Positions 2,041 to 5,861 of a stretch of DNA of 21,119 nucleotides are shown piece by piece; position 1 is the stretch's first letter, and the number at the start of each line of letters is the position of its first letter. The translations under genes and the position numbers were made by a program. The notes under the pieces were generated by a model. That model saw only the letters and a program-made list of their open reading frames with translations. It was not told the DNA's origin and ran no database searches. The stretch covers positions 1 through 21,119 of IMG/VR virus record IMGVR_UViG_3300007345_000359; one strand, 5' to 3'. This stretch comes from a virus.

Positions 2041-2557
2041 TTGGTGTGAAAATGTATTAAGAATCCAAGGCGACAAAGAATCTTTGCAGAAGTTTCTCTT
2101 GTCTTGCAGATGGAAGGGCGCAAAAGGTAGGAGTGAATCCTTTTCTTTCATGCCATTTACCCCAAAAGAATACCAAGAAAAATGGGATTCCGATTGGGCG
2201 CGTGAATATTGGGGAACGAAGTGGGACGCAGATACCCACGGCATCTCCATATCGAAAGACGGCAGGCTATGTTACATATCTTTTGACACTGCTTGGTCTC
2301 CGCCAATACCAATGATATCAATATGGGAGAGGCTTTATCCAAGCTTATCATTTACTATACGCTACTATGAAGGTGGTATGTGGTTCATGGGAGAAGACGG
2401 AGTTGAAGAAGACCTACCAGTGTTGACAGATAACAACGAAGAACAAGAGGAAGCGCACTCAGTTTATGTTGAGAAGTTTCTTAGCTTTGAGGACATAGAC
2501 GGAGAGGCTTACAGAACTATGATAAGTATTCCATTAATAGAAGGAGAGAAGCTATGA
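2033..2557 (+). CDS. Api92/DUF1281-like protein (174 aa)
   Basis: The N-terminus MPNWCENVLRIQGD matches the hallmark start of the phage Api92-like / DUF1281 (YubB ferredoxin-like) family. That family is widespread on phages and plasmids and has no established biochemical role. A FMPFTP element near residue 40, a Trp-rich middle (WDSDWAREYWGTKWDAD) and FDTAWSPPIP near residue 85 also fit. The family fold is a ferredoxin-like alpha/beta sandwich. An AAGGAGG site 6-12 nt upstream fixes the ATG at 2033. The C-terminal 50 residues are acidic. It overlaps both neighbours by a few bases. Family assignment is by motif recall. Confidence 0.8.
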   Translation: MPNWCENVLRIQGDKESLQKFLLSCRWKGAKGRSESFSFMPFTPKEYQEKWDSDWAREYWGTKWDADTHGISISKDGRLCYISFDTAWSPPIPMISIWERLYPSLSFTIRYYEGGMWFMGEDGVEEDLPVLTDNNEEQEEAHSVYVEKFLSFEDIDGEAYRTMISIPLIEGEKL

Positions 2558-2832
2558 GGTTAGACGAAATCATTAGGTTAGACGAAATCATTTCAGAAGA
2601 CCCTGACATCCGCGCAATTGATACTGTCGTTGAGTTCTTATCTCATGACACTACCACGGATGAAGACCTTGCCTTCGAGCCAAGAGCATCACTCGCCAAT
2701 CACCTTACCAAATTGTTGACGACATTGCGCAAGAGTATTGTTGAAGACCTTTCGGTAGCTCACAGAGATTTGGAGGGTGAGAAGGCTGACCACGATATTA
2801 AAGAAGCAAAGATAGAGAGGGCTTATGAATAA
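2554..2832 (+). CDS. Acidic hypothetical protein (92 aa) with duplicated N-terminus
   Basis: ATGA overlap with the upstream stop; AAGGAGAG upstream is a good ribosome site. The protein begins with an exact duplication, RLDEII twice, encoded by an 18-nt tandem repeat. The rest is acidic and probably helical (VVEFLSHDTTTDEDLAFE, then KADHDIKEAKIERAYE). No family is recognised. The ATG of a 25-aa membrane peptide lies within its last codons. Confidence 0.65.
   Translation: MRLDEIIRLDEIISEDPDIRAIDTVVEFLSHDTTTDEDLAFEPRASLANHLTKLLTTLRKSIVEDLSVAHRDLEGEKADHDIKEAKIERAYE
2557..2592 (+). repeat. Perfect 18-bp tandem duplication
   Basis: AGGTTAGACGAAATCATT occurs twice in a row (2557-2574 and 2575-2592), immediately after the ATG of the 92-aa gene, and adds one extra RLDEII in frame. 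Confidence 0.95.
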
Positions 2833-2902
2833 AGAAAACCTTTTCATCTCACTAATCATAGTATTTTTAGTGATGTCATACGCTTTGTTATTTTTATATT
2901 AG
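2825..2902 (+). CDS. 25-aa membrane microprotein
   Basis: ATG at 2825 overlaps the upstream stop by 8 nt; TAG ends at 2902. The peptide is MNKENLF followed by about 17 hydrophobic residues (ISLIIVFLVMSYALLFL), a single predicted membrane segment with N-terminal charge. Its ribosome site would lie in AGAGAGGGC within the upstream gene (GAGAGG, about 5-10 nt before ATG). No family recognised. The intact frame, near-overlapping start and membrane-segment length argue for a gene, but at this size chance is possible. Confidence 0.5.
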   Translation: MNKENLFISLIIVFLVMSYALLFLY

Positions 2903-2924
2903 TTAATAGTTGACAGGCAACCAC

Positions 2925-2958
2925 ATGTGTCATAGGAATCTACCTATGGCACATTTTT
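2925..2958 (+). promoter_or_regulatory. Terminator-like hairpin over the exonuclease start codon
   Basis: ATGTGTCATAGG (2925-2936) pairs with CCTATGGCACAT (2943-2954) over 12 bp with one G-U pair and a 6-nt loop AATCTA, followed directly by T residues to 2958. The 3' arm holds the ATG at 2946, and the 5' arm and loop hold the AGGAA ribosome site. A TTGACA at 2910-2915 lies just upstream with a weak TAGGAA (2933-2938) 17 nt away. It may act as a translation-blocking hairpin, an attenuator, or both. Confidence 0.55.
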
Positions 2959-3701
2959 ATAACTGCACAAAAATCAAACAACCATTTCTTGAGAAAGAAA
3001 TTACTACCCCAAGCCAAGCTAAGAAACATAGTGATAAGATATTTCCTAGCATAACTACACTGATTGGTTCAACAATCAAAGACCCCTTCTTGGATTCAAT
3101 ACATAAGCCACGCTCGCTAGTTAAGTTCGCGAGGATGTCGGAGTATGATGACCTAAACTGGAAAGACCTAGAGCAACTGTGCTATGGTCTTGTTGAATCT
3201 CCCGAAGGACACATGATTCCAAGCGCTGAGTTTGGGACACAGGTTCACAACTCTTGTGAGAAGTTATTGAACGCAATGAAGTTCGGTGACGATGACTATC
3301 CGCCAAGCTTATACGATGAGTATGCCCAACCGTTTATCGATTGGGTTAAGGAAAACAATTACAAAATTGTTGGGACAGAATATCCTATCGCAGATAACCT
3401 TATTAAAACCTGTGGCACAATTGATGTTGTGCTAAAAGATGAGACGCGAAATCATATATTCATCTGTGACTACAAGTGTAGAAAGAGTAGACAGTTCTAC
3501 GACAAGGACTTGTGGCAAATGGCTATTGAGTGCGAGATGATAAGGCGCAGAGGATTAGACTACCTACCCAGTTGTATCTCTGTGTGTATTGACATCAATA
3601 CTGGCAAGCATCATCACAAGAAGTGGGATGAAGATAAGATGAAGGACGCTATACAAATTGTGAAGTATATCTCTAAACTATATTGGGCAATAAGAATGTA
3701 A
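2946..3701 (+). CDS. RecB-family PD-(D/E)XK exonuclease
   Basis: Probable phage recombination exonuclease that resects double-strand ends to give single strands for the annealing protein downstream. From ATG 2946 it is 251 aa. The RecB/Cas4-like motifs appear in order: IFPSITTLIG near residue 32, GTQVH with His101, E145 in VGTEYPI, D160 in CGTIDVV, the D175-Y-K177 core in ICDYK, and Gln191 in LWQMAIE. The frame is also open from a TTG at 2910, but ATG 2946 has AGGAA 7-12 nt upstream. Its start codon lies inside a 12-bp hairpin. It overlaps the next gene by 1 nt. Exonuclease function is inferred from motifs and from its pairing with an ERF gene. Confidence 0.85.
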   Translation: MAHFYNCTKIKQPFLEKEITTPSQAKKHSDKIFPSITTLIGSTIKDPFLDSIHKPRSLVKFARMSEYDDLNWKDLEQLCYGLVESPEGHMIPSAEFGTQVHNSCEKLLNAMKFGDDDYPPSLYDEYAQPFIDWVKENNYKIVGTEYPIADNLIKTCGTIDVVLKDETRNHIFICDYKCRKSRQFYDKDLWQMAIECEMIRRRGLDYLPSCISVCIDINTGKHHHKKWDEDKMKDAIQIVKYISKLYWAIRM

Positions 3702-4621: not shown

Positions 4622-5009
4622 GTTCGGTAACTTTTATTACCGAAACCACGAAGACCAATGCAACGCATTGAAACCTCTTCTTGAAAAGTATAATACAACT
4701 CTCATCGTATCAGATGAGATAAAAGAGATGACAGGAATTATATTCTGTGAATCAACTGTTGCGTTGTACTGCACTGAAACAAATAAATTAGTTGGTGCAT
4801 CAAAGGCACAAGCTGGGATTGACCCAAAGAAAAAAGGAATGGATATTTCTATGACCTTTGGTTCGGCTTCAAGCTATGCTCGCAAGTATGCAATCAACGG
4901 GCTCTTCCTATGTGACGACAACAAGGATGCTGATGCTACCCACAAGTTTGATAGCAAGCCAGTGACCGAAAAGTCTCCACTTGAAACAGAGGAGGAAGAA
5001 TGGATTTAA
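4560..5009 (+). CDS. ERF-family single-strand annealing protein
   Basis: Probable recombinase mediator of the ERF superfamily, which anneals complementary single strands after exonuclease resection. The 149-aa product shows the usual start, IQSELNAPKTQFNKFG at 8-23 and FYYRNHEDQ at 25-33. The core signature SSYARKYAINGLFLCDD lies at 104-120, followed by an Asp-rich DNKDAD. The C-terminus is acidic (TEEEEEWI). It is somewhat short for the family but complete. It starts inside the 3' end of the nuclease gene and runs 10 nt into the HTH gene. With the RecB-like exonuclease and the SSB-like protein it makes a complete recombination set. Confidence 0.88.
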   Translation: MKQKLQKIQSELNAPKTQFNKFGNFYYRNHEDQCNALKPLLEKYNTTLIVSDEIKEMTGIIFCESTVALYCTETNKLVGASKAQAGIDPKKKGMDISMTFGSASSYARKYAINGLFLCDDNKDADATHKFDSKPVTEKSPLETEEEEWI

Positions 5010-5188
5010 CAAGAGCCTGCGAGCCACTCATCAAACCCAAGGAAGCTTGCGCAATCTTGGGAGTTAACATGAACTCCTTGAGGAGTTACATTAAAGCAAA
5101 AAAGTTTCCCACATATCAGCTATCGAAGAGATGCTTTCGATTCAGAAGGTCAGAGATAGAAGATTTCATTAACAATAATATTAAATAA
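5000..5188 (+). CDS. Excisionase/MerR-like HTH DNA-binding protein (62 aa)
   Basis: A single-domain DNA-binding protein of the HTH_17/excisionase type. The pattern LIKPKEACAILGVNMNSLRSYI (split over residues 10-31) is the helix-turn-helix, followed by the KFPTYQLSKRCFRFRRSEIEDF wing and helix typical of the family. GAGGAGGAAG 5-14 nt upstream sets the ATG at 5000. It overlaps the ERF gene by 10 nt. No integrase is visible, so it may be a transcription regulator rather than a recombination directionality factor; it is the only clear DNA-binding regulator here and a candidate for the palindromes at 571-600. Confidence 0.8.
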   Translation: MDLTRACEPLIKPKEACAILGVNMNSLRSYIKAKKFPTYQLSKRCFRFRRSEIEDFINNNIK

Positions 5189-5822: not shown

Positions 5823-5861
5823 AAATGCTAGGTTGACATCGAAGTCAGCCTAGCATTTTTT
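5823..5861 (+). terminator. Rho-independent terminator
   Basis: AAATGCTAGGTTGAC (5823-5837) pairs with GTCAGCCTAGCATTT (5844-5858), 15 positions with one G-U pair and a 6-nt loop, followed by a T run to 5861. It ends the recombination operon before the helicase gene. The TTGACA at 5833-5838 is part of the stem and has no matching -10. Confidence 0.9.

Follow-up and report, generated by a model that had tools for sequence, protein, structure and literature searches.

The recombination operon and its first gene

The window analysed here is a stretch of viral DNA of 21,119 nt (IMG/VR record IMGVR_UViG_3300007345_000359). An exonuclease gene (Table 1) heads a block encoding an endonuclease VII-like protein, an ERF annealing protein, an SSB-like protein and a DnaB helicase, and the open reading frames (ORFs) upstream of it are co-directional. 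The exonuclease, endonuclease VII-like, ERF and SSB genes bear out the placement of the element at the entry to a recombination module, as proposed in an initial annotation made from this sequence alone. The MAHFY start of the exonuclease was unvarying in 14 diverse aligned relatives, and the start codon was therefore assigned to position 2946. Phage C75C1 carries the only relative found in the phage collection (34% identity), and its gene order is similar. In searches for the host, a genome scan with the window protein returned zero relatives, and an alignment scan returned a single 32% relative. It came from an uncultured Opitutae bin and may sit on a phage contig. No match was found among solved structures.

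Two small reading frames lie nearby. A small HTH_17 (excisionase/AlpA-like) protein encoded within the recombination block (5000-5188) is a candidate regulator. A possible 25-aa hydrophobic peptide (MNKENLFISLIIVFLVMSYALLFLY; 2825-2902) ends just 5' of the TTGACA that precedes the exonuclease gene.

Table 1. Features around the exonuclease start in the window
Feature	Position	Strand	Remarks
-35 box TTGACA	2910..2915	+	36 nt before the A of ATG
5' arm of hairpin	2925..2936	+	Also most of the putative promoter spacer; shown by fold and terminator scan
Candidate -10 TAGGAA	2933..2938	+	Stem top and loop; 17-nt spacer; weak, 3/6 matches to TATAAT
Hairpin loop AATCTA	2937..2942	+	6 nt
3' arm with start codon and codons 2-3	2943..2954	+	Fold and terminator scan
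Predicted transcription start, A of ATG (leaderless)	2946..2946	+	Predicted from the -35 box 36 nt upstream
Exonuclease gene, 251 aa	2946..3701	+	PHROGs exonuclease families, best E 1.3e-11
T5 tail	2954..2958	+	Made up of the last stem base, the Phe codon TTT and the Tyr codon's first T; may act as the tail of an intrinsic terminator

A stable hairpin encloses the start codon

The exonuclease start lies in a hairpin that is real, conserved and far more stable than shuffled sequence. As first described, it has a 12-bp stem (2925-2936 with 2943-2954, one U.G among the pairs), a 6-nt loop (2937-2942) and T's directly after the stem, and its 3' arm holds the ATG at 2946. The fold of 2905-2975, proposed earlier as a check, reached -20.5 kcal/mol compared with a shuffled mean of -9.42 (z -4.66), and none of 200 shuffles was as low. 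The ATG was paired with a probability above 0.99 in a 63-nt context. A terminator scan also picked up the hairpin; because it reported four such sites in a 4-kb stretch, compared with 3.2 expected by chance, the scan alone is no proof, which comes instead from conservation. No Rfam family matched positions 2300-3500 up to an E value of 1.

Pairing is conserved and covaries among relatives

Exonuclease relatives were taken from seven scans of IMG/VR, one of which kept 80 of 339 relatives. An earlier context set used 103 of 116 sources, the window and its own copy (L028) included, after 13 loci with no clear MAHFY start had been dropped; a wider start pattern later admitted some of these 13, yielding 95 distinct start contexts once identical ones were removed. 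Contexts with TT[GT]AC[AT] located 34-37 nt before the ATG were classified as boxed (47/95) and the others as unboxed (48/95), four TTTAC contexts being moved from the unboxed to the boxed class before counting. Pairing was scored between the 7-nt core of the 5' arm and GGCNCAY, which covers the end of the ATG and codons 2 and 3, and a full score (7/7) was required. A looser label of 7 of 9 pairs, which gave some unboxed rows of the tree a hairpin, was abandoned in favour of box plus 7/7.

This comparison, called for by the initial annotation, showed that the pairing was kept: all seven pairs formed in 44 of the 47 boxed contexts and six in two more, whereas none of the 48 unboxed contexts reached 7/7. 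The remaining boxed context, L031, was unpaired, having lost the hairpin and retained the box at 36 nt. Likewise, the ATG was paired at P>0.8 in 42/47 boxed contexts versus 7/48 unboxed ones. Neither box nor hairpin was present at the exonuclease start of Phage C75C1. On the tree, the boxed rows then known fell into three clades, and a later scan added the TTTAC group.

With the 5' arm base named first, the third base of the Ala codon was paired as A-U in 38 contexts, U-A in 5 and G-C in 3, and that of the His codon as A-U in 13, G-C in 25, G-U in 6 and U.U in 2. When the arms were re-dealt among the 46 contexts with at least six pairs, full matches averaged 27.7 and never exceeded 34, compared with the 44 observed; because the contexts are related, these counts are not independent events, and the number of independent compensations is small, by our estimate at least two. 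Across the aligned contexts, the pairing is conserved with covariation: changes in the 5' arm, which is noncoding, keep step with synonymous substitutions at Ala and His. It is hardly credible that the pairing is due to chance or simply follows from conservation of the MAHFY coding sequence: coding does fix the 3' arm, but the noncoding 5' arm tracks the synonymous changes, and this covariation contradicts such an origin. Moreover, shuffled upstream DNA gave 7/7 in 1.9% of trials, compared with 36 of 38 contexts in the earlier boxed set, and unboxed contexts gave 0/48.

The same data bear on a DNA-level reading, which we consider highly improbable: a dimeric repressor would bind the inverted repeat as its operator, across the -10 and the start. 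A span from -10 to +9 is typical of operators, and a small HTH_17 protein is encoded at 5000-5188. However, the gap between the half-sites takes five lengths (12-16 nt from the arm end to the ATG), bad for a rigid dimer, and the U.G at +4, which pairs in RNA but would be mismatched in DNA, is kept in 28/46 contexts. The variable gap and the retained U.G make RNA the better fit.

The T tail and the proposed ribosome site vary among lineages

Five T's followed the stem in 21/47 boxed and 0/48 unboxed contexts, and the large clade around L037 and L051-L082 has no T run. The initial interpretation was borne out in part: one element could both end transcription and hide the start, and the pairing is conserved, but the T tail, and with it any termination, is confined to 21 of the 47 boxed contexts. 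As the tail is missing in the other 26, termination is not general. Judged from these patterns, hiding of the start is likely the constant function and termination a lineage-dependent extra.

A simpler account would make the hairpin a plain intrinsic terminator of the upstream operon that genome compaction has shifted into the beginning of the next gene; the hiding of the start would be a side effect. The T tail of the window stem agrees with it, as do the start codons CAT TTT TAT, which are used against the preference of the gene itself for CAC, TTC and TAC in L006 (elsewhere CAT 0/8, TTT 2/7 and TAT 2/13), L032 and L034, although T-rich early codons could also aid initiation. In addition, a separate strong terminator-like hairpin follows TTGACA in five of the six TTGACA-containing clusters of the unboxed clade (L016, L025, L094, L172 and L200, not L102). 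The TTGACA lies 54-63 nt before the ATG, the stem begins 8-11 nt downstream from its initial T, and T tails are mostly present. In L016, L172, L174 and L185, where the TTGACA is 54-60 nt before the ATG, the -10 position falls in or near the loop. Against this, most of the 26 boxed contexts that lack T5 still form a perfect stem on the ATG, and we regard the terminator account as unlikely.

The AGGAA at 2934-2938 had been read as the ribosome site of the gene. It does span the 5' arm and loop, but it is not a conserved ribosome site: among the 47 boxed contexts, matches to AGGAGGT covered at least five bases in none, four bases in 8, three bases in 8 and fewer in 31. The window itself has AGGA. 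In some lineages, the need to pair with CCTAT partly forces the AGGAA; other lineages lack it. For coding sequences of at least 120 aa, a Shine-Dalgarno match of three or more bases was found at 82/258 starts compared with 73/258 after shuffling, a crude count based on first-ATG starts; because starts here generally resemble shuffles, a missing Shine-Dalgarno sequence is weak evidence for leaderless translation.

The box keeps a fixed distance to the start codon

In the 47 boxed contexts, the distance from box to ATG was 35 nt in 30, 36 nt in 11, 37 nt in 5 and 34 nt in 1. It was tighter than the distance from box to 5' arm, which ranged from 13 to 17 nt, and the loop also varied more. The TTGACA at 2910 had been noted as sitting just upstream of the stem, and it does, but it is not merely nearby, since its spacing of 34-37 nt from the ATG is fixed in 47/95 contexts. 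Against a promoter at this box, TTGACA is not enriched in the window (10 occurrences for 15.7 expected).

In a standard sigma-70 promoter, the first base of the -35 box lies approximately 35-36 nt before the RNA start. With the box 36 nt upstream, the predicted start therefore falls on the A of the ATG. The best -10 match at spacers of 16-18 nt averaged 3.29 of 6 over 24 clusters versus 2.51 in shuffles, and none of 300 shuffles was as high. Owing to the poor -10, a simple promoter scan did not pick up the 2910 site. The fixed box-to-ATG distance suggests a nested promoter, probably leaderless, that bypasses the hairpin. Within the leaderless RNA so predicted, weak pairing involves part of codons 1-2. 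The RNA may instead carry a short conventional leader with weak initiation independent of a Shine-Dalgarno sequence.

The tight spacing also bears on the suggestion that the exonuclease stays off until some signal opens the hairpin. Here the element would be a signal-responsive switch (an attenuator, a thermosensor or a protein-bound RNA operator), and the main mRNA would begin upstream. A stable start-codon hairpin with conserved pairing is the usual form of such switches, but the contexts, inspected by eye, contained no conserved competing pairing, and no Rfam match was found. Loop length and sequence vary, which argues against a conserved ligand or protein site. Furthermore, a switch leaves unexplained why the distance from box to ATG is tighter than that from box to stem. 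The opening signal was thus not borne out, and we consider a switch quite improbable. One candidate for a competing pairing, UGACA/UGUCA between TTGACA and the 5' arm, is possible in the window and broken in L029/L030; it was rejected as not conserved.

The same spacing recurs at other genes

Throughout the window and eleven related records, TTGACA was counted wherever it lay no more than 80 nt from a called ATG start. Fifteen of 38 sites lay 35-37 nt before a called ATG, compared with a mean of 0.59 across all 180 permutations of the hexamer, TTGACA included; the next-best permutation, ATTGAC, had 7 sites and overlaps TTGACA. Three gene families accounted for the 15 sites, namely that of the exonuclease, that of a small gene next to dnaB (at 36 nt; L116 and L120) and that of a gene adjoining the large terminase gene (terL). 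Based on its position and a weak, sub-threshold HTH match, the last was taken for the small terminase subunit and is referred to as terS-like.

Relatives of the terS-like gene came from a scan that kept 80 of 260. In 38 of 46 distinct terS-like contexts, TTGAC[AT] was located 35-38 nt before the first ATG, and in many AATAAT or TTTAAT followed at a 17-nt spacer. The other eight had no box at 33-39 nt (seven had none in reach, and one had it at 48 nt). In the four records examined, the gene stands first in the structural operon, which points away from the early block. In L126 and L132, the nearest called ORF on its upstream side is divergent; in L142 and L143, a small, doubtful same-strand ORF (67 and 76 aa) lies between the terS-like gene and the divergent genes. 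In L225-L275, the -35 box often lies within the palindrome TTGACTGTCAA(G), which has the look of an operator, one that would overlap the packaging operon's -35. The TTGAC box at this gene, often in the palindrome TTGACTGTCAA, could be a regulator site instead.

The terS-like gene has no hairpin, its ATG being paired at P>0.8 in 5/40 contexts versus 42/47 at the exonuclease. Given the orientation of its operon, co-directional read-through should be slight. This contrast between the two operon heads is the best argument that the hairpin exists to silence read-through.

Two further hairpins were observed in the window. A strong terminator-like hairpin with a T run (521-568) is followed by TTGACA at 563, and the first longer plus-strand gene of the early block begins at 638. 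Between the SSB/ERF block and dnaB, a 15-bp terminator-like hairpin (5823-5858) carries TTGACA in its stem. The DnaB start was considered as a second hairpin-gated gene and rejected; among seven distinct contexts, the 5823-5858 hairpin is present only in the window and the near-identical L001.

Comparison with known regulatory elements

The closest parallel is gene e of phage T4, an established example of such gating. According to the portions of the report that deal with it, long early transcripts of gene e fold, which lowers lysozyme synthesis from them approximately 100-fold, whereas late promoters just upstream produce RNAs that lack the 5' part of the structure; soc, 49 and I-TevI have start-site hairpins of the same kind (PMC3014915). 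As far as that account goes, gene e resembles the window in that a hairpin hides the start in the long RNA and a promoter, predicted in our case, lies in the region of the 5' strand. It differs in that the window promoter is sigma-70-like, its predicted start is the A of the ATG, the gene encodes a recombination nuclease, and some relatives of the element carry a T tail. No context had the T4 late promoter TATAAATA between box and ATG at the exonuclease; TTGACA-like -35 boxes were found instead. The window element would work like that of gene e but, as this promoter is lacking, falls outside the T4 type.

Between the genes of T4-like phages, PeSL cassettes form composite promoter-terminator motifs (PMC4503421). 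On that description, the window element is similar in joining a predicted promoter to a stem-loop but differs in that promoter and stem-loop share sequence with one another and with the start codon. PeSL elements are defined by an early promoter joined to a stem-loop terminator and by their sharing between unrelated gene borders; in the window, TTGACA-bearing terminator-like hairpins also occur at 521-568 and 5823-5858. Compared with intrinsic terminators, the window has the same G+C-containing stem followed by T's, but the T tail lies in codons 3-5 of a gene and is not kept in all bearers of the hairpin.

The mRNA of lambda cI is the classic phage leaderless mRNA. In bacteria, a Sinorhizobium meliloti study lists 171 leaderless mRNAs, in which the RNA start is the first base of the AUG (PMC3616915). 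Unlike these, the window mRNA is leaderless by prediction only, and its leaderless start would be coupled to a hairpin that silences read-through. The regulation of pLS20 establishment, judged from the part of the text at hand, was set aside as not relevant.

A model for the operon head

We think it probable, from the arrangement of these elements, that a nested gate stands at the head of the recombination operon, in which read-through RNA is folded and locally initiated leaderless RNA is translated. Read-through RNA from the co-directional early genes would carry both arms and fold, which would hide the start codon; where a T tail follows, as in this window, the folded RNA may also terminate. 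A sigma-70-type promoter would lie across the hairpin, with its -35 at 2910, the 5' arm in its spacer and its -10 at the stem top and loop. RNA from this promoter would begin at approximately 2946, the A of the ATG, and, lacking the 5' arm, would leave the start codon free of the hairpin. Assuming that the host translates leaderless mRNAs, this short RNA would be used as one, and the predicted timing follows: early read-through would yield no exonuclease, and the gene's own promoter would be the sole source of it.

A broader version, to which we give a little less than an even chance, would extend the arrangement to the phage group. Its operon heads would rely on leaderless sigma-70-type promoters, where the upstream genes are co-directional, selection would have shaped the promoter spacer, the -10 and the first codons into an RNA hairpin, and only locally born RNAs would be translated. 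In this group-wide reading, approximately 50 bases would serve as promoter, terminator or translational lock, and, at once, as the start of the coding region.

Our literature search turned up no account of a start-codon hairpin that has a promoter nested in it and a leaderless start; subscription literature was mostly outside its coverage, and the result is no proof of absence. If the model holds, a promoter can also supply one arm and the loop of a hairpin by which read-through into the gene it drives is silenced, and leaderless initiation is the escape. It would also provide a sequence-only rule for recognizing leaderless genes and operon borders in uncultivated phages, namely that the -35 box precedes the ATG by 34-37 nt and that a hairpin is present only if the upstream genes are co-directional. 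In addition, the element would offer a compact, insulated expression part.
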